Shown: positions 4,877-56,800 of the stretch, piece by piece
Layout: every line of letters starts with the position of its first letter
Position numbering within the stretch: position 1 is the stretch's first letter
Source: Thermomucor indicae-seudaticae
Taxonomy: Eukaryota > Mucoromycota > Mucoromycetes > Mucorales > Lichtheimiaceae
Length of the DNA: 64,000 bases
Reading direction: 5' to 3'
Assembly (NCBI GenBank): GCA_000787465.1
Contig: JSYX01000023.1
Location: forward strand, 28,357-92,356
Translations under genes and position numbers: made by a program
The notes under the pieces: generated by a model
The model's database searches: none
The model's input: the letters and a program-made list of their open reading frames with translations, nothing else
What the model was told of the DNA's origin: nothing

Positions 4877-5378
4877 AAATTCAGGTAAATTATTCAGAGA
4901 TATTTATTACATTGTTCCTAAAATTTAATTATTAATTTTAAATCTAAATAAATATCCTCTCCCCCCTATTATAATAAAGGATTTATAAGAATATTGGTTA
5001 TAGGTCTCAATAAATATATTTTAAAGGTTACTTTTTACAGTAACCCCTACTTATTACTTTAAATTATTTAGGCCCTCCTGGCCGCCCCGCCTGAAGCCCC
5101 GGCGGGGCTTTAGAATATTTATCCAAATTTCCTTGAGGCTGATACCCAATAATTTAATGTTTTAAGAAAGATAAAAAGATTGAATTAAATAAAAAATTAT
5201 AAGACTTTTTATTATCAAAAGTTAATAATAAACTATTATTATTACTTTAAATAATGTTTTTTATTAAAATCTTATAATTTAAGTTATTAGTTATTAACCT
5301 ATAAGATCTTAGCTAAATCCTAGGCCGGGAGCCTGAACCTTGGGCCGAGCCCGCGGGGCTAGGTTAAAAAGAATATTT
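4877..5378. other. spacer with GC-rich palindromes
   Basis: No gene seen. It contains GC palindromes at 5070-5112 (GCCCCGGCGGGGC type) and, from about 5300, the leader sequence that is repeated upstream of the cox1 intron 10 copy and of nad4. Confidence 0.5.
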
Positions 5379-5419
5379 ATAACTTAGAATTAAAATGACA
5401 ATAGTAAATTCTAAGTTAT
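5379..5419 (+). promoter_or_regulatory. hairpin presenting the orf323 start codon in its loop
   Basis: A perfect 13-bp inverted repeat (ATAACTTAGAATT / AATTCTAAGTTAT) encloses a 15-nt loop that contains the ATG at 5395. The right arm is the first codons of the gene. The same hairpin is kept at the cox1 intron 10 copy (about 13187-13226) and before nad4 (about 42340-42382). It may control translation or be the end of a mobile unit; I cannot tell which. Confidence 0.55.
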
Positions 5420-6366
5420 ATTATTCCCCCTATTTAAGAAGTTACAATTTTTTTATTATGGTTATCTTATTCTTTTCAATTTATTTAGGTTGGGTTTTAG
5501 CTAGTATTACAATTGAACTTGTAAATTTTATCTTAGCTAAATTTGTAAATCCAATTCCATGGCAATTAAAAGTATTATCAATTTTTATTGGTGGTCTGTT
5601 AGTTATTATTGTAATTAGCATGATTCCATCTGATTTTACTAATCATACTATAGATGTATATTGTTCTGGTAATGAGGAAAGTCATAATCCTTACTTAATT
5701 ACTGTATCTAATGAGCATTTAGGTGTAAACTTTAGTTTTGATCCTAGAAAGATTACGGATGTTTTATTACTTGGTACTGTAGGAAAAATAACTTTAAGTA
5801 CAATTAAAGGTGCTCCTGCATCTGTGAAAGCATCTGTTGCAGCTTCTACTGTTTTATCAATGGGAACGGTAGCTGTTATGTTAAAAGCATTTAATAACGT
5901 TAGTAATCAAAGTAAAGTTTACGAAATTTCTAAAAATAATCAAAAAGTCCAATTAGAAATTTCTCTTAATATTGAAAAAGGTGGAAGTTTTAAAGATGTA
6001 GAAGAAGTAGCTAAAGTCCCCCCTCGGGGGGTCTTAGCTCCCTTCGGGGCTAAATATATTAGCATTAATTCACCTTTTGAATATTTATATTTTGTTGAAA
6101 CTCTAAAAGTAATTATTTTATGTATGGAAATTCTTACTATTTTATCAATTATTGGTTTTATCTTGTTTGCTTTATTTATGTCTTTTACATATTCAGGTAT
6201 TAATAATTTTGATAAGACAAATAATATTCTATTAAAAAAATTAATTAATTTAACACAAAAATCTGGTAAAGTTTATGCATTAATTTGGGGAACATTAACC
6301 CTATTTAATTTAAGTTGGATTTTATATTTTACAATTAAATTTATAGAATTATTAAATAATCTATAG
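5395..6366 (+). CDS. unidentified four-helix membrane protein (orf323)
   Basis: A 323-aa protein I do not recognise. Hydrophobic segments lie at about residues 19-45, 58-78, 235-265 and 297-318. Between them are an acidic Cys motif (DVYCSGNEESHNPYL, about 89-103) and an Ala/Val-rich stretch (PASVKASVAASTVLSMGTVA, about 142-161). The end is LIWGTLTLFNLSWILYFTIK. Decayed or frameshifted relatives occur in cox1 introns 10 and 4, at 7.4-8.2 kb and in the cob 3' region, so it belongs to a multicopy family. Codons 208-217 (PPRGVLAPFG) come from a GC-rich double hairpin inserted in frame. Location is probably the inner membrane; function unknown. Confidence 0.7.
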   Translation: MTIVNSKLYYSPYLRSYNFFIMVILFFSIYLGWVLASITIELVNFILAKFVNPIPWQLKVLSIFIGGLLVIIVISMIPSDFTNHTIDVYCSGNEESHNPYLITVSNEHLGVNFSFDPRKITDVLLLGTVGKITLSTIKGAPASVKASVAASTVLSMGTVAVMLKAFNNVSNQSKVYEISKNNQKVQLEISLNIEKGGSFKDVEEVAKVPPRGVLAPFGAKYISINSPFEYLYFVETLKVIILCMEILTILSIIGFILFALFMSFTYSGINNFDKTNNILLKKLINLTQKSGKVYALIWGTLTLFNLSWILYFTIKFIELLNNL

Positions 6367-6402
6367 TTATAAGTAATTTTTATTTTAAAATTAATCTTGA
6401 AA

Positions 6403-10329: not shown

Positions 10330-25667
<15,338 letters not shown>

Positions 25668-31228: not shown

Positions 31229-32675
31229 TATGCTTTAATTGCAATGCTACCTCTTACAAAAGTTCTGTATATATTATATTAATCTGTGATGGGGAGGAAG
31301 ATGGGGTGATTATTAATAAAGTTTATACATTATAGTTTTATAAAAATAAAGAGTAATTAATGTTTTAAATTTAGATATAGATCTAGCTGTAATATAAATT
31401 TTATATTGAGTTTTATGTCTATGAATATTACATTCTAAACCTAATTTAGACATAAGAGCTTTTTGAATTAATAAATGTTCAGCTTTAGAAAAAGAATGAG
31501 TATTAATATAAAATCCTGATTCCGCTTTACTACCATCATATATAACCCAATAAGCTAAAACGACTGGAGTTAATAAATCTTCAAAACATTGTGGAAGAAT
31601 TTTTACTCCATCCTTATAGAATAATTCATAAAGTTCTAATAAGGCTAGTAAAGATCTGGAATATAATTGTAAATAATCAGTATCATATTTTCGTATATGA
31701 TAATTTGGTAAATGTGTACAATAATGAGATAAAGTATTAAATAGATGAAGCACATAATCGGTTATAATAACTGATTGATTATATTTAAAATAGGCTACTG
31801 TTTTAGATTTATTAGTTTTTAAACTACCATCACCTAATAATAAACCAATAAATACTTCTTTATGATATTCAGTTAGTTGCATTAGGTTACGAGCATCTTG
31901 AGTTAATTTTAACCCTACTGTTGAACCAATATTAGTTCCATAAAGCACTAATGCTTTACAAGAATAATTAATTTCCATTTCTTTAACCATTTTTCATCGT
32001 TTTTGAATTAAATTAACTTGAGTATTGTTAATAGCAAAACATGTTAAGTTTTAGTTAAAATTTTTAACATGATAAATACTAATACTTCCTCTTACATAAT
32101 ATTAATATAATATATACAGTTGTATATTTATACAACTCAATCTTTCAATTGAGATCGGACTATTTCTTTATTCTTTGATTTTTGCTATTGGATTTGATGT
32201 TTTTATTAAACATAAGACCTGCAAGAAATCATAAGAATTTATCACATATAGTCTCTGAGGTACTTCGGGCCTTAGGTACCTAGCCCGCCGGCGGGCCGAG
32301 TGTCTGAGGTGTAAGTTACCTGCGAATGATCCATAATATTCTTAAGATTCTTACTATTATAGTACTTAAGACTTAAGGATGTTCTCGCATATAGTGATAT
32401 ACAAAGCAATAATAATATGCTAAGGACCAAGAGATAGATCTATAATATGCTACTAAAATTCCTAGTCCAATAGCTGATTCTGCTCCAGCAATAGCAATAA
32501 TATAAATTCCATAAGTTTGACCTAAAATATCGTCAAAACTAAATGAACTTAAAATAATTAAAAGTGCTACAGCTAATAGCATAATTTCGATGGAGATAAG
32601 CATTAGGATAATATTTTTTCGATTAAGAATAAATCCTAAAATCCCAATTAAAAATAATACCATCGATAAATTCAT
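31228..32675 (-). CDS. nad4L: NADH dehydrogenase subunit 4L with two alternative last exons
   Basis: Small three-helix subunit of complex I. Exon 1 is 32675-32438 (79 codons plus one base), with [17 protein letters not shown] and [17 protein letters not shown]. Two terminal exons both start TAAGAGG after an intron-final G. The proximal one, 32094-32051, gives [14 protein letters not shown] (93 aa in total). The distal one, 31256-31228, gives LRGSIAIKA (88 aa, the usual length) and its stop overlaps the nad5 ATG. The distal exon is therefore probably ancestral. Both keep the frame. An endonuclease gene lies between them. Which is used cannot be told from DNA alone. Confidence 0.92.
31257..32437 (-). 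mobile_element. group I intron of nad4L with nested terminal exon and endonuclease
   Basis: The ribozyme core is complete between 32437 and about 32120 (CATTCGCAGGTAA, CTCAGAGACTATATG, GAAATAGTCCGA). Perfect 19-nt inverted repeats at 32101-32119 and 31265-31283 flank the proximal exon and the endonuclease gene, so pairing would bring the distal splice site (ACTTTTG|TAAGAGG) next to the core. The short form of the intron ends at 32095. A GC-rich palindrome at 32263-32302 sits in a core loop. Confidence 0.8.
31313..31990 (-). CDS. LAGLIDADG-type homing endonuclease between the two nad4L end exons
   Basis: 225 aa, intact, ATG start, not fused to an exon. Motifs of the second LAGLIDADG subfamily: [17 protein letters not shown] (about residues 47-63) and [18 protein letters not shown] (about 151-168). 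It lies in the loop closed by the 19-bp inverted repeat, so it is intron cargo in the long form of splicing and 3'-untranslated cargo in the short form. Confidence 0.88.
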   Translation of the reverse strand: MVKEMEINYSCKALVLYGTNIGSTVGLKLTQDARNLMQLTEYHKEVFIGLLLGDGSLKTNKSKTVAYFKYNQSVIITDYVLHLFNTLSHYCTHLPNYHIRKYDTDYLQLYSRSLLALLELYELFYKDGVKILPQCFEDLLTPVVLAYWVIYDGSKAESGFYINTHSFSKAEHLLIQKALMSKLGLECNIHRHKTQYKIYITARSISKFKTLITLYFYKTIMYKLY

Positions 32676-41500: not shown

Positions 41501-42297
41501 CTGTCGAGCTTGTCTTGACAGAGCAAGTTTTGTTAAAACTTGTTCCCCCAGGCGGAATGAACTCACCCTGGGACAAGCCCCCGGGCTAGTTATATAAATT
41601 ATATTGAATAATGAATACAAACAATAATAACAGTAAAATTAATTGGTATTATCTAAATTGACCATAGTTAATACTTAATTATGGACTATCTCTTAATTAA
41701 CAATGTTAATCTTTTGCATGTAGTCTCTGAGGTTTCCCATAAGGGTTTCCTGCTGGTTATTTCGATTGTAAAATTATTACCAATATGGTATTTACAATAT
41801 ATAAAATATTCCAGCATATAGCAAAATTTTATTGAAGCGCTCTAATAGAAAAATACACCCCAAATACCAATAATTAAGAACATTGGAATTAAAACACTCT
41901 CGAAACAAATATAGAATAATAATAAATCTAGAACTACAAAAACCGCAATTAATAAAGTTTCTAGAACTAAGAAAGCAATTAGGAAATTTTTAATTCCTGT
42001 TTTAATACTATCCCAACTAGATAAAATACAAATTGGAGTGATAAAAGTGGTTAATAAAACAAAAAATAAAGAAATTCCATCTACTCCTACTACTTCTTTA
42101 GTAGTAACAGTAGGAAAAGAACTAACAAATTGGAATCCGTTATAATTAGAATCAAATCCAGCCCAAAGAACTAATGATAAAACAAAAGTTAATAATGAAC
42201 TAGCAAGAGCTACTTTTTTTTGTAAAGATGAATTTTCTCCTGATAGAATAACACCAATAACACCTAAAATGGGTGTAATCAATAGTGATAAAATCAT
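38547..42297 (-). CDS. nad4: NADH dehydrogenase subunit 4, two exons
   Basis: Proton-pumping antiporter-like subunit of complex I. Exons (minus): 42297-41857 and 39533-38547; 1428 nt, 475 codons plus TAA. Blocks: GVDGISLFFVLLTTFITPI, FESVLIPMFLIIGIWG | ARERKIHAAYQFFLYTLLG, FHIWLPEAHVEASLAGSIIL and GQ-type helix ILAHGVVSPALFICV. The ATG overlaps the TGA of a 23-codon leader frame that derives from the orf323 5' end. One large intron separates the exons. The conserved 3' element follows the stop. Confidence 0.96.
39534..41856 (-). mobile_element. group I intron of nad4
   Basis: 2323 nt between IGIWG and ARERK. Core at 41.68-41.85 kb (ACCAGCAGGAAACC, CTCAGAGACTACATGC, AAGAGATAGTCC). The remainder holds a decayed GIY-YIG gene and GC palindromes. 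Confidence 0.8.
39600..41440 (-). pseudogene. decayed GIY-YIG endonuclease in the nad4 intron
   Basis: The catalytic start is readable as TEINTNKQYIGSAMNF (near 41.03 kb), but a TAA replaces the Tyr of the GVY motif just before it. The frame is then open to 40625, including DKFNFGMVYITTNYL and the helix GEALYLMHLTHIE. A 39-nt GC palindrome is inserted in frame (ASPPGLARTGKTA) between HIE and LRMLEQSL. The rest, to 39.6 kb, has many stops and another GC palindrome (40.41-40.48 kb). It is related to the remnant at 1-1260. Confidence 0.7.
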
Positions 42298-42365
42298 AAT
42301 TGTAATTTTAAATTGTAACTTCTTAAATAGGGGGAATAATATAACTTAGAATTTACTATTGTCAT
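42294..42365 (-). CDS. 23-codon leader frame overlapping the nad4 start
   Basis: Starts MTIVNSKLYYS, identical to the start of orf323, and ends with TGA that overlaps the nad4 start codon (ATGA). The start codon lies in the same hairpin loop as in orf323. The sequence upstream to about 42470 also matches the orf323 leader, so nad4 has acquired a foreign 5' end. It could couple translation of nad4. If UGA were read as Trp it would run on only a few codons. Confidence 0.45.
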   Translation of the reverse strand: MTIVNSKLYYSPYLRSYNLKLQL

Positions 42366-43161
42366 TTTAATTCTAAGTTATAAATATTCTTTTTAACCTA
42401 GCCCCGCGGGCTCGGCCCGCGGGGTCAGGCCCGGGGGCCTAGGATTTAGTTAAGATCCTATAGGTTAATAACTAATAAAATTTAATTTTTTCTATTTCGA
42501 TCCTTAAGGTATAAGTACCTATTATCTTTTAATTAATTCCAAATTAATAAAGAGAATGCCGAAGGGTAATAAAGGATAAACCTAAAATAATTTTATTTAA
42601 AAGCTGATTGCTCTGTGAAAACTAAAAATATTTTAGAGAATTTACTTTTTTACTTTCTTTTAATTAAAGTTCATTTTCTAAAATAAAAATGGAATATATC
42701 CTTTAGCCCAGAAGGTAGCTTTAGGGGTATATATCTATTATCAGCCTTTGTGATCTATTAAGCGGACTAAAATTAAATTTAGGATTAATCTAGTTCCCTT
42801 CGGGAACTAGTATTGATAGACTTGCTCTGTCAAGACAAGCTCGACAGAGCAAGTTTTGTTAAAACTTGTCCCGGGCGGGCTAAAGGTAAGTACCTTCGGG
42901 ACAAGCTCGACGGGGTAAAGGTAATAAATAATTTCTATTCGAGTCCTAGGTTATATTAACCTCAAGGATGAAAAGCAATCTATTACAACTTAGGTTCATT
43001 ATTAATTAATAAATAGCTGTTACTATATTATTTAATAATAAATCTATTAATTATCCTACCTTATAGCTCTCCGGAGAGACTGTCCCGGCCTGGCTGTCGG
43101 AACTATTAGTTATAAATATTTTATATAAAAATTATTATTATTGATAACATAAAAGAAACAA
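42366..43161. other. spacer upstream of nad4
   Basis: To about 42470 it is the orf323-type leader with GC palindromes; 42785-42915 carries CTAG/CTTG palindromes. No gene recognised. Confidence 0.5.
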
Positions 43162-44274: not shown

Positions 44275-44301
44275 GGGTGGTATTGTATTTAAATATTTAG
44301 T

Positions 44302-44853
44302 TTATCTAATAAATGTCTTAACTCTTAATAGTTCAGAGATAATACCATTTAATCCATAACAAATCATAATTAAACTAATTAAAGATAGAAAAAATTGTGC
44401 TAATAATAAGCCTTTTCTAGCTGTTTTATATTTATCTAAGAATTTTAATAACTTAGGTCTAGAATTAAACCATTCAATTTTTTCAAATTCTACAAAAATA
44501 AAAAGAAGATTAATTCTCATTAATATTAAAAAGAAAATACTTAATTCTGATAATTAGAGCATACTATTAAGAACTCTAAATAAATACTTAGTAGTTTCAA
44601 TACTCTCAATATAGGATGATAGCCCATTATCTCCAGGCTCATACATACTAAATACTGTAAAATATGATCCTGTCAAAGACGATGGATCATTTTATGGATT
44701 AGAGCTAGGTCCTACACTAGTATTAATTTTAAAGAATGAATCTTCTTTTTTAACTTCTTGAATAATAGCGCTTGCCGCAGCAGTCGTAGCAAACGTTCCT
44801 GCTACAACTGTAATTTTACCTCCAACACTAGAAACAGAAGCAGCAAGGTCCAT
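44302..44853 (-). pseudogene. truncated membrane-protein gene (B-type) joined to a cob end
   Basis: Frame from ATG 44853: MDLAASVSSVGGKITVVAGT, directly the Ala/Gly-rich block without the usual N-terminal helix and linker. Two in-frame TAA codons follow (near 44697 and 44562). The C-terminus is intact: IFFLILMRINLLFIFVEFEK, SRPKLLKFLDKYKT and ICYGLNGII. The ATG lies inside, and in a different frame from, the preceding cob-like C-terminus, so it looks like a deletion derivative of the cob-end plus membrane-protein unit at 47.99-46.88 kb. Confidence 0.65.
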
Positions 44854-44980
44854 TATTTTCTACAATTTCAATTACTGGAACAATAATTAAAAACCAAGCA
44901 AAATAGAATCCTGTAGCAAATTGTCCAAGAGTAATAAATGGTGAAGGAGAAAGAATACAATAAATTAATAGAATTAGCAT
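44828..44980 (-). pseudogene. third copy of the cob C-terminus
   Basis: Reads SPSPFITLGQFATGFYFAWF then [15 protein letters not shown], closely matching the cob end exons at 47994 and 46832 but without the GQHVEEP start or the splice boundary. It has its own ATG (44980). The ending ENNGPCC is shared with the 47.9 kb copy, so these two are more closely related to each other than to the 46.8 kb copy. Confidence 0.65.
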
Positions 44981-45077: not shown

Positions 45078-46376
45078 TTAATCTGTATTTAATGGATAAG
45101 AATAGAATCTATATCCTTCTAATAATTCACCTTTATCTAATATTCTTCTAATCCTAGTAATACCTAAATTAATATCTCTATTAGTAGAAGCAATAGATTT
45201 ATGTACTTGAATTAAATTTAAATCACTATCATATTGATAAATAGATTTACTATTAGTATTTTTACTGGCTCTTTGAGCTAATACATTTTGAGGTAATCCT
45301 GATAAATAATCATAAATAGGAGTACTATTTAATAATTTATTAATATCTGTTAATAATACTGGAATTGGTGTAATACCAGATCGTTTAATATTAGAAGTTA
45401 ATCTTCTCTTATTTGTATTAGATTCTAATGATTTAATTAAATCTAATCTATCAGTTGTAGTATGAAATCCTCTTCTATGTAACATTACAATATATCTCTA
45501 ATGAGCATAATCGAAACCTTTAAGAGACATAAAATCCATACTATCAAATAGAGGTAATAATTTATCATGTAAATATTGAATATCAGTAAGTTTATAATAT
45601 CCCATTTCATTATATTGATTAGGTTATACATTACCTTGACTATCTAAGAATGCTTTAATTGCATAAAATACATATGTAGATTCATTATTATTAGCAAGAA
45701 TAAATCAAGGATATCTGAATTTACCATTACAATTAAATTATCCATCACCTTCTGTAAAACCTAATAACCAATATTTAGTAATAACTAATTTATGATCAAT
45801 AGGAAGATTAAAATTAGATCTTTTACTATTCATATCTAATTTAAGATTTAGGATAACCTTTTGTCCATCAATAGATAAATAAGTACCTTCTTTAATTAAT
45901 TGATAGGCTTTATACCAATCAACATAATCTAGGTATTTCTTAGTATTTAAATTAAAATATTCAAAAGTAGGAATAATAATTCTTTCTAATGTAGCTAATT
46001 CAGATACTCTTAATACACAATTATTATTATTTTTATCAATACTTAAACTGGCATTACCAAATAGATTACTTTTCATCCATTCTAATAGAGGATATTCATC
46101 TAAATGTAATTTAATTAAGAAGATTAATCTAATTTGAATTCTACCTGATTTATGAGTAATATAATCAATTAAGAAGCATCCTTCTGCATCAGTAAATCCA
46201 ACAAACCATTCTACAAATTTTTTAGGTAACTTATTGAATGGTACTCTAGACCAATCTTAATTTCTCCAATTATTAATAGAATAATTAACAGTAATTAATT
46301 TATCAGAAGTAGTATAATTTCCACTGAATCATTCAGTGGAATATAAAGAAGTAAATTTAGTAATTAAAGTAGTCAT
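45078..46376 (-). pseudogene. decayed LAGLIDADG endonuclease after cob
   Basis: From ATG 46376: STE-TGA-FSGNY (TGA where Trp is common), then [14 protein letters not shown] near 46.2 kb (first motif), an open stretch 46076-45738 and WLLGFTEGDG followed by a stop (second motif). The last frame (45485-45078) has a NUMOD1-like ending (SIYQYDSDLNLIQVHKSIAS; GYRFYSYPL). At least four stops in all. It lies between the second and third copies of the cob C-terminus. Confidence 0.7.
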
Positions 46377-46688
46377 ATGTAATATATATATATAATATAG
46401 CTTTGTAAACGTAATCTCTTAATTATTTCATCAAAGTAATACTCTGGATATATATTACAGCAAAATTTATTTATTTATAAATAAATTTATGTTCTTTATA
46501 TTTAATAATTAGTCAATTTATTATATAAAATCTAATAAATTTTTATGTATTTAAAGACTAATTAGATGTTTTTACATAAAGTATATAATCTAAATTTTCA
46601 ATTTATTACCTTTATTAATATAGAGAGGGGTGAGAATTATTTAATTAAATATTATCGTATAAATATGTTATTATTAATTTATAATTAA

Positions 46689-46832
46689 CTATTTCTTATT
46701 AGATTCTGATGCTAAATCCATTAGTGTGTTCTCAATAATTCCAATAGCAGGTACTAAAATTAAGAACCAAGCAAAATAAAATCCTGTGGCAAATTGCCCT
46801 AGGCTAATGAATGGTTCTTCTACGTGTTGACC
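46689..46832 (-). CDS. cob: distal terminal exon of cob (canonical C-terminus)
   Basis: 48 codons starting GGTCAACA after an intron-final [21 protein letters not shown], ending IIENTLMDLASESNKK and TAG. The IENTLxDL ending is the usual one for fungal cytochrome b, so this is probably the ancestral last exon. It joins exon 10 in frame. An exact 23-nt inverted repeat just upstream (46836-46858) pairs with 48241-48263 near the intron 10 core. Confidence 0.8.
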   Translation of the reverse strand, partial: GQHVEEPFISLGQFATGFYFAWFLILVPAIGIIENTLMDLASESNKK

Positions 46833-46882
46833 CTACTCAATTATCTTTAATACTTACATAATTTTAATTATAAATTATTAAT

Positions 46883-47794
46883 TTAGGAATCAAGTGATTT
46901 ATATTTTAATAGTGCAATAATAATAGCATTTAATCCATAATTAGAAATAATTGAACTAAATAATAATAAAAATAAAATAGGTACCAACAAAGTTTTTCTT
47001 ACAATTTTATATTTATTTAACATTTTTAACAGTCTAGGTCTATTTTTAATCCATTTATATTTTTCAAAATCAACAAAAATAAAAATAAGATTAATTGCTA
47101 ACACAATTAGAAAGAAAATATTTAATCCTGATAATAATAACAGATTTTCTAGAACCTTCTGTAGAGAATCAGTTGATTCAATACCAGGTAAAAAAGAAGA
47201 GCTATTAAAATCTTCAGGTTCATATGCACTAGGGAATGTAAAACTTGTATCTGTAGGAGATGGTGATCTATCTTCTACATTACGTGATTCTGTTTTAATC
47301 TTAGGGAATAATTTATTTTTACCAATTTTTTCAATAATAACTTTTGATGCTGAAGTTGCAACTACTGTTCCTGCAATAATTGCAGCTTTACCTGTAGGAT
47401 TCGAAACAGTGGCAGCAATTTTAGAACCTCCATAAACACCAGTAGCAGTAGTAAGTGTTGATGCTACAGTATTTACTACTTTTTCAAAAGTAGGAGTTAC
47501 ATCTAATCTAACTCCATCTTCCCTAATTGATTTTATAATCTCTTTAGTTTCATTTAAAGTGTTTAAGACTGCTTTTTTTAAACTATCATCATCTCCTTGA
47601 CAATATTCTGTATTTAAAATTTCTACAGACCAAGAACTGGGAGTGAATGAAATTTATACAGACCAAGAACTGGGAGTGAATAAAATAACAATAATCCCTA
47701 AAATACTAATTACCATAGTATATAATGATAATCTTTCAATTACAAAGAAAATTTTATTTACAGTTAAATATTTTGATATAGAATTATTTAGCAT
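46883..47794 (-). pseudogene. near-intact membrane-protein gene (B-type) between two cob end exons
   Basis: 303 codons from ATG 47794 to TAA, with one in-frame TAA (47656-47654) caused by a 33-bp tandem duplication; the second repeat copy has GAA at the same place. Features: N-terminal helix (LSLYTMVISILGIIVILF), NTEYCQGDDDSLKKA, Gly/Ala-rich block (KAAIIAGTVVATSASKV), AYEPEDFNSS, helix NIFFLIVLAINLIFIFVDF, basic NRPRLLKMLNKYK and a last helix with SNYGLNAIII. It belongs with orf323 by layout. Function unknown. If the stop is real the gene is silenced by a very recent event. Confidence 0.75.
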
Positions 47795-47865
47795 TTTTTT
47801 AATTTCAAATAAATTGTGTCTAATTTATTTGAAAATAGTCTCGGAGTATTAAAGATGATTTTTCA

Positions 47866-50800
47866 TTATTTTTGGCAGCAAGGTCCATTATTTTCTACAA
47901 TTTCAATTACTGGAACTAAAATTAAGAACCAAGTAAAATAAAATCCTGTGGCTAGTTGCCCTAAACTGATGAATGGTTCTTCTACATGTTGACCCAATTT
48001 TATTATCTTAATTACTTTATCTGGAAATAAGTAATCTTGAACTTTGTATATAGATAATTTGGGTTTAATAAAATTTAACAATATTTTAAATATCTGTTAA
48101 GGACAACCATTTATTCAATTTATTTATAACCTCTTAATAAATATTTTGTTTTAAGTAGATTATAATTTGGGTAAAGGGTATATCTTTACAAAATTATATA
48201 TGGATTTAATTAAGTTAATAAATTATAACAGATTTAATTTTGTAAGTATTAAAGATAATTGAGTTGGACTATCTCTTCGCTTATATTTATATCGCGCATT
48301 ACATATAGTCTCTGAAGAAACATTACGTTTCTTGCTGATTATCCAACACTTAAGATTATTACTATTTAAGTACTTAAGTTATAAAGATTTCCCAGCATAT
48401 AGTAATATTTTACGGTTAATTACATCCGTAAGTGAGGCAGTCAATTATTTACCACACCAAAGTAAGATTAAGAAATCTACTACTAATAGCCAGAAAGCTA
48501 ATTTCATTAATGGTCGGAATGCTGATCCTCTAACTCTTGAAGTATCTAATACTGGCATAGCTAGAAGAATTAATAGAGAACCAAACATTGCAATTACTCC
48601 TCCTAATTTATCAGGAATAGATCGTAGAATTGCATAGAATGGTAATAGATCATTATTTCAAGTTTAATCGATCTTGTAGCACGTAGATAAGCACATATAA
48701 AGTTTAACTAAAGCCCCGCATGGCTTTAGCCCAAGGGGTGGCCCCCTCGGGCCTAAAGATCTTAGATGATCCATAGATTCTGCCCAAATATAAATTCTGG
48801 GTTTACCTCCTTTGAGATGAACAGAACATTTTAATTCAAATTTATTTTTAAGTGTACCAATTAATCTATCTATATCTTCAATAGAAAAAGCATACACGTT
48901 AAGATGTTAACCTCTTCCGTGTTTAGATCCATCATCCATGATCCAATGTGCTAATCAGATTTCTATTAATAGATTAAAGATATCTGAAGGTACTACTTTA
49001 GTATTATTTAGATAAAAAATTTGTCTATATTTATTGAAACAAGGTAAAGCCATAGTAGCAAAAGATAGATATTCATAAATCTGTTTTGTCCTTTTATCTT
49101 CTCAAGATTTATAATAATATTTAAAATATTTAGTACAATAAGGTTTAAAAAGATCAAATACTTTTTGGTAATAGTCCTTATGTTTAATATTCGTTTGAGT
49201 AAACAAGAATCTACTATTACCAGTAACAGATCTTTGTTGAATATGTCTATCTCCAAGCATAATACCTACTAAAGCTTGAGCTGTAGTATTAGAAATAATA
49301 ATTCTCTTGTTCGGGAACCAGTCTGATTTTACCTTTAGTAGAAGTACTATATAGTGCTAAATTAAGTGCGTACAAAGTATCGCCCATTGGGAATCTAACT
49401 TGAAAGTTTGGATTGTATCTTCGTGAAATATAATTCACGCTTTACGTGCAATCTCTGAGGTAATAATACCTGCTGATTACCTCTATCGAGAGAGTTGTAA
49501 CCTTTAAGGTATCTCGACAATAGGGAGATTTCTCAGCATATAGTAAAGTTTTATTGAGAGGCATCTATTTACCACTCAGGTACAATAGAAGCAGGAGTTT
49601 GCATTGGATTAGCTGGAATATAATTATCTGGATGCATTAAATGGACTATATCTTTTTCCGATTTTTGAAGATTTTAATTAAATTATCAATTCTATATTTG
49701 AGAGGATGATTTTTTAAATGATAACCTCTTTCAATAAACAGAACTAATCTTCTTATTGTGATGAAGTCCGGATGTTTTATTGTTTTTAATGGATATTTTT
49801 CAAAATATGCAAGCATTGTTTTAATTCCTTGTAAGTCAGTAATGACATAATTATAGCCATTCCAACTTTTATCATAGTAAATATTACCTACTCCAAAAAC
49901 TTTTTGAATTTCTTCTAAAATTTCTTTAGATTTTTGACTTACGCTAATTGTTAAAGTATAATTATTTCTAATACTAAAATAACCTTCTGCATCAAAAAAT
50001 CCAGTAAACCAACTATTATTTTTACTTATTTTATTATTAATAATTGGTTCAATGTTTAATTTGTTACACACTTTAATTAATTGTGCGCGTTTTGAGTCAG
50101 TTAATAATTTACCATTAATAGAATTAATTACATCTGTTACATATAATTTTTTAGAAACTCTCCATCTATAAGCTTTTACTTTACTTCTTTTTAAAACAGA
50201 TCCATGAAATCTTTGTTTAATTTTATATAAAGTTTTAACATCTTCTTCACCTAAAGTAATTTCACATACTTGAGCGTTGCTTTTATAGATAGATAATGTT
50301 CCATCTCCATCGATTAATCCGGCTAACCAATAATTAAAATCTTCATCTTTATTTAAATCATTTACATCATTTGTGTTTGATTTATATAAAGTTAAATCGG
50401 AAATATCGCGTGTAGTCTCTGAGGATCCCTTTGTACTATAAAAATTTCGTAGGTTTCCTGCTGATTGGTCTACAATCGAATTGATTTTAACTGAAAAGGG
50501 CACTAAAATTGCACTTACATTTCGAGTACAAATTCGATCTAAACTGTCCCAGCATACAGCGATATCATAATTCAACAGTTTACATTGTTGAACGGCCATC
50601 CCTGAAGTTTGACCAAGTTTATTTGGAGCATAGAATAAGAATAATCCAAGTACTAAGAAGAATAAGAAAATTGTTACTAAATCTTTGAATGTATAGTAAG
50701 GATGCATATAGAGTCTATCTGCATTTGCTGTAACTCCTAATGGATTACTTGATCCATGTTCGTGAAGTGTAATTAAATGCATTACTGCTAAAGCTGCTAA

Positions 50801-53800
50801 AATGAATGGTAATAGATAGTGAAGACTGAAGAATCGGTTTAGAGTAGCATTATCTACGCTGACAAATATATTAGTTTAACCGAATTAGTTTCGATTATCA
50901 TTTTATAATATACCTCCATAATTTTCATTATGGTTAGGACTATATTATCATTTATTAAATAAGATAAATGTCTCATATATAGTCTCTGAGGTTTTACAAC
51001 CTGCGGATTACCTATTGTAGCATATCAAGCATTGTTATTCTTAGAATAACTTGATCTTTAAAGCTTCCCCGCATTTAATGAGATTTATTTACAATAATGT
51101 AATGAGGGCTCAGCGTCTACCCTCCCCAAATGACATTTTTATTATCGATATAGCATTTAACTATATCTTCTCATCATCACTGATGAGATTAGACTATGTC
51201 ATCAACCTTTCCAAATCTATGTAAATTTGGATTAAGTTGTTGGGCGCTCGTGTCCGGATTATTGCTAGTGCGGCTCACCAGTTAGTCGTTGAACGTTCGT
51301 ATACCTATTAAAGCACTGATATACGCTTCGCTGCAAATTGTCTCCTTTTTGGAGAGTTCTTTGCAATTCACCCAATTTGCAATTAAGCCTTTCAGCTTAA
51401 TGGAACTCACTTACATCTAGAAAATATTTTTATTTTTAAATATTTACCCTGGTAATTTTAAATTACAATATCGTGAACTTTGTTTAGGATCATTAATCTA
51501 TTTATTATATTGTGTAAGTTTATAACCTACAAGAAAATGTAAACCTGAAAAAGAAAAAATTTAACTACCTTTTGAATATATTTAACAGAACTAACAATAA
51601 ATTTAGAATCACCTCCACTGTTTTCACCTTTCGTTTCTGTATTAAATATAATTTTTAATGCTTCAAATATAATAAATGTGTTCATTGTCGTAGTGAAAAG
51701 CAAATCTCTTTATTTACCTTACTAAAAAATGATCTTTCTGTTATAGTAAACCCAATAATACAGTTATGAAAAAAAGGTAATTTAGTATAATATTCTGCAG
51801 TTTGAAGTAAACTATTATAAGCAAGAATTACAGTAGGTAATTCATAATATTTTTAAGGTTATTTTGTAAAATAAAAAATTGCTTTATCAAATCGTGCTCG
51901 ACGAGTATCAGTTAAAAAGTATAAATTATGATGAATAATTAGTGGAAATACTAATACTTGTAGGTATGTTTTAAAAATAATTTTACAGTATTAATTTTAA
52001 GATATTTGTCGATACGACCCACCTTAAGTACTGAATGGATATATTTAATTAAATATAAATATCGAATATCCAAAGAAATTATTAGTTGAATTATAATATA
52101 ACCTCCTGGTGTTTTAGTGATAGAAATATATCCATCACCATCAATTAAACTAATTAGTATAGATAAAAATTGTATGAAATATTAAGTGCTTCTCGTTTTT
52201 CATTTTCAATACGAATGGTAGTTTTACGTAGAGCTTTATTATTTACTGAACCAATAGTAGGTAAAACACTTGAACAAATAAAAATATTTCTAGATTTGGG
52301 AATTCAACTAAATCTTTACCAATCCAAGGGATAGCAGATAATAAATTAGTAATTACTGTTGCCTAAATCTTTAAAGTAAATGAATCCAAAATGGATGCTT
52401 TTTCATTTACTTTTCTGTACTTTATTACCTATTAAGGATTTACATAAAGCCTTGGACACTACTATTAACTATTAAGTAGTGAAGATTCCGACTGTACATT
52501 AAGCACCATTTCAGGCACCCATCAGTGACCCAGTCTGTAGCGATGTTACACACCACCGACGGTCTCTAAACAAAAGCTATTTATTTGACCGTTTTCACTG
52601 ACATCGCCAGAGATAATTAATCTCCAAGATCGTTGTCACGATCTTCTATCATATAATAACTATTTTTCTGTGTAAATTGCATAGTTAAAATGATAGGACT
52701 ATAGTTGATTTAAATTAATAACCATTTAATTTATAATACATACCTCTTTCTGATATCCTATTATATTTGACATATGAATAATTTTCTAATTTGTAAATAT
52801 TACCCACCGTACCACCAGTTTACCTAAAAAGTGAACACTCAACTGAAGAAAATCATCATTATTTAAATAATTTTTATATTGATTGTATTATCTATATAAT
52901 AGGATTAAAGTTTACTTAAATTAATAATAATTTAGTTTATAATTTATTAAACCTATTGGATTATGACAATCCTACCCTATAAGCCATATTAAGGTGAATA
53001 TAGTCTCGTACGATATTTTGAAATTTTAAAACATGTTTATTAGGAACTCGAATTCGATACTGATTTTTATTTCTTTGATAATAAGTTGACTCAATATCAT
53101 ATTTTTCTAATAAAATTTGTCTTAATAAATTAATTTCTCTAATGTAAATAAATCAGTACATAAATAATAATATTATGACTTTTACTATATATTCCATCTC
53201 CTGAAGCCCAATTTTTTAATATAACAGGTGAAAATTCATCATATAAATTTAGTGGAACGATTTTTTATTCCTTAAATTTTCTTTTCTATACCATTTTTAT
53301 ATAATTTAGTAAAATAAGGTAAAGTGGTTAAATTATAGATTATATAAGTTTTATTAGTATGTTTATCAAAATAAGAATATTCTCTAATTGATGCTCCTAC
53401 AATTTATAAAGTATTAAAATAATCCCAAATATATTGGACATATTCTTTATCTTTCATACATAGTCTAAAAGAGGCTTCATTACCGTTTAAAATAAGACTT
53501 CTATCTCCTAAAAGTTGTCTTACAATTAAGTATTTATTGATTTAATCGTAAGTTTTCTGAAATTTGATCTTTTTAGTTAAAGAAAGTCGTTTTCTAATAT
53601 TAATAGTAGAATAATGTCTCTTTAGTTCTGATCCTTTATAAATTGAAGTTTTAAGAGAAATCTTCTTAATCTTGTATTTATTAGAATTATTAATAACATT
53701 TGATTCTACTTTGTGTCTTATTGAAGGAATCATATATGGTTTTACTAATTTAGATAAAGTCTTCATTGAATTTTTTGGGAAATAAATGATATATTTATCA

Positions 53801-56800
53801 GGTACACCTGCAGATTGAGGTTTCAGATTGAGTTGATATTTATCATTTAATACTTTACATAAAAATTCAATTTCTTGAAGAGTAAAACTATTGGTTGCAA
53901 TCTTTAATCCTGCTGAAGTTTTACATCCATTATCTTGGATCCAAATAGCTAAAGCTAAAGGTGTTAAATATTCACCAATATTATTAGGAATAATTTTAAC
54001 TCCATTATGATAAAATGATTCTTTAATCCAATCAAAGCTAGTGAAAGTAAAAGTTCTAAATCTATATAAATATCTAACTTTACCATTTTTACTTAATCTA
54101 GTAGAAACTTTAGGTTTAGTATCTGAACAATAACCTCTTTCTGCAAAAAATTTATGAAACCATACTAAATATTCCATATTAGATTCTTCTTGTTGAAAAG
54201 TGAATCTAGTTCCTTCACCATGTTTTTCTGCGTAACTATCACCAAGCATCGATCCTATAATTACAGAAATAACATCTTGATTATGTGGACCAATTCTTTT
54301 TTGCGCTCTAGCCTGGTGGTACTGATATTGAGCCGAGGAGCAAGAGCCCCCGGCTCTAGTTTTAGGTTTAATAAATGGTAATGTATTTGATAAGATTAAT
54401 AAGTCATTATCTAAATCAACCATTTGGGACACAAAAATACCCCATAAACTCATTTGCGTTTATCTAACCGTGCCTAAATTCCGTTTTTTATTGGCATGTA
54501 ATTTATATTTCATAGAAGAATGCATATAAGGTAAAACTAAATTTCGTAATTTAGGTAATTCAGATACAGGTACATAAATAATATAATTATTATATTTTGG
54601 CCAAATATTTGTTTTAATATTAAATTTATTAAGAAGAACAGATTGTAATAATTCTACATCTTTTTTAGTATAACTATTTGTATGAAGAATTAAACCAGAT
54701 GCATGATATCCACCGTCGTCTTGAATCCAGTATGCTAACCCCCTAGGAGTTAAATAATCTGCAATATTAGAAGGAACTACTTTTTTTCCTTCAGGATAAA
54801 ATATTTTTCTAAACCAAGTATATTTAACAGATGTACGAGTTCTAAATCTTAATACCAAATGTTTACCACCTTTTCCATCCTTGGTTTTAAATGGAACAGG
54901 TACTGTTGTAGAAGCTAAACCTCAAAACAAAAATTGGAAATAGATAAAATATAAATAATTTGCATGGTTTAATCCTTGTTTGAATTCAATTCTTGCACTG
55001 TTACCTCGTTTTTCTACAATTGCATCTCCTAATAAAGAGCCAATAATTAAATCCATAATTTTTTTTGGTAATTTAGGCGCCCCATTAGAGATTGTTACAG
55101 GATTAATAGCTGAATATAATAAAAATTCAGCTGAATTTTGCTTTTATCCTGATCTCATAGGAGTCAAACAGATAAAATGGACTATCTCTTAATCGTTAAT
55201 TAAATTGATTATTACGTATAGTCTCTGAGGACAATGATTCTAAATATCTGATATAATTAACCAGTTATAAAGAATTATCTTCCTGCTGATAACTCACTAT
55301 TACATACTTAAAATTATTAGGATTATCCTATTTAAGTTTCTAGAGTGTCTCAGCATATAGTAATTTATTTAATAAGGGCCAATTAACCCCATGGAAGAAC
55401 GTAACCTAAGAAAGCTGTCAAATCTTCAAAGCTAAATTTATACCAAAAGGTAGATAGAAAATTTAGCTCCATGTACCTTATCAGTTTATTAATCCCCGAG
55501 TCTAGGTTAAAACTCTTTATAATAAACATCATCTAAGGCCTTGTGAGGAATTTATTCCCGAAGATTCCGACTGTACATTAAGCACCATTTCAGGTACCCA
55601 CCAGTGACCCAGTCTGTAGCGATGGTATACACCACCGACGGTCTCTAAAGTCTATCACTTTGGTTGACCGTTTTCACGGCATCGCCAGAGACTATAATTA
55701 TATAGTCTCCAATACCCCTGTCAGGGTATTCTATTATATTTAATAATTTATTCAATAAGTTGTTGATATACCCATCATCCCACCGTTTACCTTTTAAGGT
55801 AAACACTTAATTGAATAAACATTAATAAATAATTTATCTGTATAAATTACATTATTTAAATATAATAGGACTATACACTAATTTAGAGATATTAATTTAA
55901 ATCAACCAATACACTCAATAAATTTATAAATATCCTTCTAATTTGTAAGTCATTTCAGGAATAATATGTGATTTTACAATTTCAGCAAGCTTAGGCATTG
56001 ATTCTTTCCAAATGCTAATTATCCATTGATTTTCAATACCTGATTTTACTACTGATGTTCGTAAATCATATAATTTCGTTAATAAATTAGCTAAAATTTG
56101 TACATCTTGATAACTAAAACTATGAGTAGCAATATTTACTCCTTGTCCTTTTTGTCGTGAACCGTCATCCATGATCCAAAGTGCTAGACCAAAAGGAGTA
56201 AGATACTCATTAATAAAAGGCGGTACTACTTTAACCAATTTTCCATCAACGACTTTATAAAATGCATCATAAATAAAATTTAAACTAGCCCGGACGGGCT
56301 TGTCCCGTTCGGGTAAGTACCCTCCGGGACTAGTGTAAGTATATGTTACAATTCTATAATTAAATTGTTCCTCCTCTGGAAGATGAGATTTACCAGTTTT
56401 TCTTACTAAAATTGGTTCAGGAGAGTTAGAATAACCAAAGTCATACATTAGCTTAGCACAATATTTAACATAAGCTGAATGTGTAACACCTTGCTCAAGA
56501 TAAAATCTAACACTTGGAAGTGTTTTACCTTTAACTCTCATACACTACCAATCTCCTAATATACCACTAATTAGTAAAGTAAGAATATTTTGTCATGAGG
56601 ACCAATTCTTTGAATTGCTTTTACCCTAGGAGCACTAAATGGCAAAAGTGTAGATTGTAAAATTAAAATATCTAAATCAGTGCATTTTGGCCCACAATAA
56701 GCCATCATTAAAATTAAAATGATAACACCAATACTCCATACTTTAGCTCTAGGAGCTTTGTAAGATCCATAATATAATCCTCTACCAATATGTAAATATA

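Follow-up and report, generated by a model that had tools for sequence, protein, structure and literature searches.

A spare cytochrome b end exon and a decaying reading frame within the last cob intron of Thermomucor indicae-seudaticae mitochondrial DNA

The core of the last cob intron in Thermomucor indicae-seudaticae is followed by two in-frame copies of the final coding exon, with a reading frame between them, and this locus raises the question of how such an arrangement arose and which end completes cytochrome b. The stretch of DNA that was analysed, here called the window, is 64,000 nucleotides long and lies on a fungal mitochondrial contig of 92,356 bases (AT-rich, 27% GC). Among the best 120 matches listed, the nearest cob proteins were that of P0003 (metagenome), followed by those of Rhizopus microsporus and R. 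azygosporus, and then Umbelopsis, which most likely places this DNA within Mucoromycota.

Anatomy of the last cob intron and its ends

On the minus strand the order is cob exon, intron core, proximal end exon (P1), cargo open reading frame (ORF), and distal end exon (D). The features are as follows.

48451..48648, minus strand: penultimate cob exon (LLPFYAILR...LLWCG), found by tblastn with P0003 (66/66 identical)
48264..48450, minus strand: 5′ part and core of the putative group I intron, sharing 75% identity across 168 nt with a different intron core in the same mtDNA
48444-48439, minus strand: P10 strand UUGACU, read by eye
48438-48432, minus strand: guide GCCUCAC, read by eye
48314-48266, minus strand: P7 motif
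48241..48263, minus strand: LEFT arm, putative 5′ strand of P9, exact complement of 46836-46858
48033..48179, minus strand: segment between LEFT and P1, tentatively the remnant of an endonuclease ORF of GIY-YIG type (49-residue alignment with stops)
47995..48017, minus strand: degenerate copy of the RIGHT arm directly before P1, 17/23 identical to 46833-46855
47866..47994, minus strand: P1, proximal end exon, 42 codons plus TAA, mosaic with a frameshifted tail
47845..47860, minus strand: 16-nt copy of the LEFT arm after P1 (15/16)
46883..47794, minus strand: cargo ORF with hydrophobic stretches by eye and a TAA at 47656-47654
47617..47682, minus strand: 33-nt tandem duplication containing the premature stop
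46836..46858, minus strand: RIGHT arm, putative 3′ strand of P9, with the distal splice site 3 nt further on
46689..46832, minus strand: D, the canonical last exon in distal position, 47 codons plus TAG, matching relatives' C-termini

The upstream exon (48648-48451) has the terminal sequence TGGTGTGGT. Both P1 (47994-47866) and D (46832-46689) start with GGTCAACA, have a G immediately before them, keep the cob frame, and finish with a stop codon. The layout that had been proposed in the initial annotation, namely exon, core, in-frame proximal end, ORF, and distal end, with both ends beginning alike after a G, was therefore confirmed. What that annotation had missed were a third end copy (P0) with an ORF remnant at 44941-44301, the arm copies around P1, the frameshift in P1, and a LAGLIDADG remnant.

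A search with the Rfam group I model gave zero matches in 46600-48700 at E up to 1, and two introns of this mtDNA with the same P7 motif pass the Rfam gathering score. Because Rfam was silent at the cob intron, the group I assignment rests on similarity to local introns together with the pairings of helices P1, P10, P3, P4, P6, and P7, which were read by eye; the helix names used for this intron are likewise our reading of the sequence.

Over its 23 nt the arm at 48241-48263 is the exact reverse complement of the arm at 46836-46858, and their 32-nt extension is 94% complementary. Among perfect inverted repeats whose arms are separated by 500 nt or more, the longest was 24 nt, whereas 1000 dinucleotide shuffles of the intron gave none longer than 17. 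The exact 23-nt repeat claimed to bracket the first end and the ORF was verified. In a whole-intron fold, LEFT and RIGHT paired with a probability of 0.98-1.0. The LEFT-RIGHT duplex had an energy of -34.3 kcal/mol, as against -12.5 kcal/mol for LEFT with the arm copy before P1; several other intron windows reached -13.8 kcal/mol with LEFT, and thus the arm copy pairs no better than these. The LEFT arm begins 2 nt past the P7 motif and the RIGHT arm ends 3 nt short of D, which places the helix directly after P7 and beside the 3′ splice site. The P7-like motif was found at 18 sites in two mitochondrial contigs, the cob intron included. When the 75 nt after the motif were searched for a hairpin of at least 7 bp starting no more than 6 nt in, 10 of the 17 other introns had one (reaching 20 bp in the intron at window 3128), and 7 of the 17 had none by the same rule. 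Given these hairpins in the P9 place of local introns, and the position of the LEFT arm in the same place, the 23-bp stem is most likely the ordinary P9 helix of the cob intron, closing a loop that has grown to 1382 nt. Homing-endonuclease genes of fungal group I introns are described as lying mostly in the P1-P10 or P9 loop (PMC7487136, available text). In view of these commonly occupied loops and the hairpins of the local introns, the stem is probably not the additional, insert-spanning device that had been suggested.

Within this loop, the cargo ORF had been annotated as a membrane-protein gene. However, its frame is not open: codon 47 (47656-47654) is an in-frame TAA, which falls inside the 33-nt duplication. 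Pfam, NCBIfam, and viral-contig scans of the ORF were all without a match. Protein searches, one of which scored 8000 candidates sharing most words, recovered at least three homologues (P0001, P0002, and P0123). P0123 (60%), which comes from elsewhere, is unbroken (325 aa) and has a similar N-terminus; the cargo gene family is therefore real, and no Pfam family matches it. An AlphaFold model of the cargo had a mean pLDDT of 40.8.

Between LEFT and P1, segment 48179-48033 aligned with a GIY-YIG/NUMOD ORF of the window (15264-16025) with a score of 61, the best of 11 proteins tried, which 0 of 500 shuffles equalled. The region of this segment gave two weak matches (E 0.002 and 0.003), and a Pfam search of the segment gave none. 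We tentatively read it as the relic of a GIY-YIG-type endonuclease.

Three diverged copies of the cob end

Downstream of D, three further features were found.

45081..46256, minus strand: degenerate LAGLIDADG gene after D (PF00961), with three internal stops and a NUMOD1-like end
44840..44941, minus strand: P0, third end-exon copy, 5′-truncated and beginning at codon 7
44301..44839, minus strand: second copy of the cargo, into which P0 runs by way of the common bases TTGCTGC, with 2 stops (both TAA) in the matched part

PF00961 matched 46256-45741 at 6.9e-19, and NUMOD1 scored 0.00085, under the cut-off. The sequence from D through the LAGLIDADG remnant to a P0 that lacks its first codons is the pattern of a displaced end. 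The two cargo copies differ at dS 0.50 and dN 0.455, which is near neutral and gives no sign of constraint between them. An assembly artefact was ruled out as the source of the three cob ends by their differing from each other by 14-21% in DNA. A repeated motif, TTGAATAAAT..GAAACTAAATCGATCA, was also noticed by eye at window position ~45010, before P0, and again at ~43400 in the downstream spacer.

The ends were compared with 46 cob tails of relatives, these being the tails of cob matches of at least 240 aa with an HVE or HIE motif (others were dropped, and the 46 include near-identical tails). Every residue of D was found among these tails. Residues T21, E31, N36, G37, and P38 of P1, the last three of which result from the frameshift, were found in 0 of 46. 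By this comparison D is the canonical cob end and, unlike P1, now agrees with relatives. Seven IMG/VR loci with cob at 45-48% identity had been considered and were dropped as not being close relatives. On another contig (G000:C456:7251-7373), a cytochrome b-like end of 46% identity was seen, which may be a distant copy or else bacterial, coming from a contaminant or an endosymbiont.

P1 is a mosaic of a D-like start and a P0-identical tail. Informative sites between D and P0 split 9:1 toward D in its 5′ part and 0:13 in its P0-like 3′ part (Fisher 1.2e-5; 0 of 20000 permutations), and its last 42 nt equal P0 exactly, including a 5-nt gap relative to D that shifts the frame. The repeat shared by P1 and D is 127 nt long (83%) and extends upstream into the intron, where it takes in the RIGHT-arm copy; the 17/23 identity of that copy was matched by 1 of 5000 local shuffles. 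For the LEFT-arm copy after P1, 0 of 200 shuffles reached 15/16. A duplex of this copy (47845-47860) with the RIGHT arm would have an energy of -13.1 kcal/mol, and a simple insertion in L9 leaves the copy unexplained.

Of 35 codons compared between P1 and D, 8 have synonymous differences and 5 have changes of the amino acid, corresponding to dS 0.76 and dN 0.064 (dN/dS about 0.08) on just 23 synonymous and 82 other sites. When the P1 branch was simulated without constraint, five or fewer amino-acid changes were seen in 0.15% of 2000 runs; the same low count arose in 4.8% at omega 0.5 and in 42% at omega 0.2. By this substitution pattern, purifying selection acted while P1 and D diverged, and the reading of P1 as a plain neutral pseudogene copy was rejected. 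The paucity of amino-acid changes relative to the simulations argues that P1 worked as a cob end through most of the divergence, either here or in another lineage. As judged from the alignments, P1 is now damaged, and the damage to its tail is recent.

Core-versus-end comparisons were also made between this cob, with D as its end, and the relatives. Against P0003, it had 4 differences at 168 core sites and 9 at 39 end sites (p 5e-5); against Umbelopsis nana, whose tail is the nearest, the values were 23/168 and 1/39 (p 0.054). Only 1 of the 17 comparisons, that with P0003, was below 0.05, and the P0003 tail itself differs from each of 16 others at 6-10 of 39 sites. Since P0003 alone gave p <0.05 and its own end is far from the others, these data are no more than suggestive that the D end was itself acquired by a swap; the swapped end may be that of P0003 rather than that of D.

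Explanations for the locus

The account we favor, with somewhat better than even confidence, is that the cob 3′ end has been swapped repeatedly in the manner of Allomyces and Glomus, leaving a spare end and a decaying ORF in the P9 loop of the last group I intron. The source process would be an invading ORF that imports another version of the gene's C-terminal coding end. It would have acted more than once: D with its LAGLIDADG gene would have displaced the truncated P0 and its ORF, and P1 with its ORF would be a recombinant in which a D-like 5′ part was joined to a P0-like 3′ part. The P9 helix would close the 1382-nt loop that holds the degenerate P9 3′ arm, P1, and the decaying ORF. With the insert placed in L9, a splice that crosses P9 and joins D would take it out whole, giving normal cytochrome b, and the insert is probably spliced out in this way. 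The sequence itself shows the anatomy of the locus, the mosaic make-up of P1, the pattern of selection, and the canonical status of D; that the intron splices to D, how the events were ordered, and a horizontal origin are what we infer from it.

A purely local history, which we consider unlikely, would dispense with a mobile element. Here the P9 arm-to-exon module was duplicated in tandem (LEFT...arm copy-P1, then LEFT′...RIGHT-D), the ORF entered the second loop, and gene conversion from P0 followed later. The RIGHT-arm copy before P1 and the 15/16 LEFT-arm copy after it are what such a duplication would leave, and the identical tails of P1 and P0 do require a recent exchange within this mtDNA. 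However, a dN/dS of about 0.08 between P1 and D requires long function of both copies, and P0 with a cargo copy recurs outside the intron, which implies that the ORF accompanies the P-type end. It is rather improbable, in our judgment, that the intron has two working acceptors, its core splicing either to P1, which is near and made first, or, once P9 has formed, to D, so that two cytochrome b ends are made and the host survives, thanks to the spare end, as the insert moves. The shared GGTCAACA starts after G agree with this, as do the ability of both ends, read by eye, to form P10 with UUGACU at 48444-48439, the strong constraint during P1-D divergence, and the expression of all inserted ends of four genes in Glomus sp. 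(PMC3630166, available text). Against it stand the frameshifted end of P1 and its residues absent from 46/46 tails, the pairing of its arm with LEFT (-12.5, versus -13.8 kcal/mol for other intron windows) where the arm of D is exact, and the broken cargo. We regard as improbable the fuller form of this idea, in which one group I ribozyme would choose between two 3′ acceptors by which P9 3′ arm pairs with the single 5′ arm, cytochrome b would have two alternative C-termini, and a non-endonuclease gene would ride in the loop. In its favor, selection acted on both ends until recently, and nad4L shows this design again.

The parallel with nad4L was itself upheld, with the following features.

32101..32119, minus strand: nad4L left arm of an exact 19-nt inverted repeat
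31313..31990, minus strand: intact LAGLIDADG_2 ORF, 225 aa
31265..31283, minus strand: nad4L right arm of the repeat, before the distal end

This 19-nt repeat brackets a short proximal end (by eye) as well as the LAGLIDADG_2 ORF, and the presence of an endonuclease here favors an endonuclease-driven origin of such architecture. The proposal that a gene travels with host function safe under either splice gained no support, given the broken cargo with no Pfam or NCBIfam match and the P1 residues unseen in the 46 tails. In contrast, the suggested likeness to elements that replace a gene's C-terminus in Allomyces and in arbuscular mycorrhizal fungi was supported by three diverged cob ends, each followed by an ORF or remnant, and by a truncated end behind a LAGLIDADG gene. 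Such an element brings a further 3′ coding end that continues the host frame, as both P1 and D do, and encodes a homing endonuclease. The latter is intact in nad4L and degenerate (LAGLIDADG) with D; the ORF of P1 has no match in Pfam or NCBIfam, and a weak GIY-YIG relic lies before P1. P1 and its cargo were therefore not filed as a C-terminus-replacing element, and look like the relic of one.

Other repeats and ORFs were noted elsewhere in the window. A 1.16-kb repeat in inverse orientation (73.5%) links 5240-6383 (plus strand) with 12258-13362 (minus strand), and parts of it recur near 42282-42487 at 94% and 88%, upstream of an ORF read as nad4. At 53542-55056, two LAGLIDADG_2 ORFs flank a tiny exon-like QMSLWG near 54456 (weak tblastn match).

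Known systems and significance

The order of group I intron, extra end, ORF, and old end is already known: it was published for the cox2 hybrid of Glomus sp. DAOM229456 (Beaudet et al. 2013, PMC3630166), as inserted C-terminal end, ORF, and native end behind the intron. There, too, the end copies have diverged in DNA and are conserved in protein. In Glomus, however, the ORF encodes an endonuclease, the inserted end is expressed, and the native end is not, whereas in cob the ORF does not match an endonuclease in Pfam, it is the far end that is intact, and there is a third copy; the available account of the Glomus gene describes no stem spanning the insert. In atp6 of Allomyces macrogynus (PMC3630166, PMC4019555), an in-frame extra C-terminal end with an endonuclease ORF displaces the native end, much as in D, the LAGLIDADG remnant, and P0. 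The succession of D, endonuclease, and truncated end is thus the arrangement described for the C-terminal replacements of Allomyces and Glomus (PMC3630166). Allomyces shows one event and cob two, and no spare end in an intron-helix loop is described in the available text of these two sources, one of which mentions an additional intron with an endonuclease in A. macrogynus (PMC4019555). Phlebia radiata has alternative C-termini in cox2 and atp6 (PMC4019555), where two copies of the last end are split by homing-endonuclease ORFs and, in cox2, the first carries a premature stop. The ORFs between its cox2 copies are endonucleases, unlike the cargo here, its cob has a fused extension only, and that account, as available, describes no stem. 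The P9-loop ORFs of fungal group I introns (PMC7487136) share the insertion site, a terminal helix loop that leaves the core unharmed, but those described in the available text are homing-endonuclease genes only and not copies of the 3′ exon as here. Neither a duplicated cob end nor a stem spanning a spare exon was found in the available open-access literature; nor, within it, was a counterpart found for a P9 that spans the insert and holds the far acceptor, a non-endonuclease ORF, three ends per gene, or the mosaic.

The locus links two known processes of fungal mitochondria, ORFs in P9 loops and swaps of C-terminal coding ends, and within about 3.2 kb it has one exon in three versions, so that the order of the swaps can be read. 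It also carries a warning for annotation, as the first in-frame end exon past an intron may be the unused one. If a spare exon can be concealed by a P9 helix that leaves the older acceptor fit for use, the persistence of such insertions in essential genes would be accounted for.
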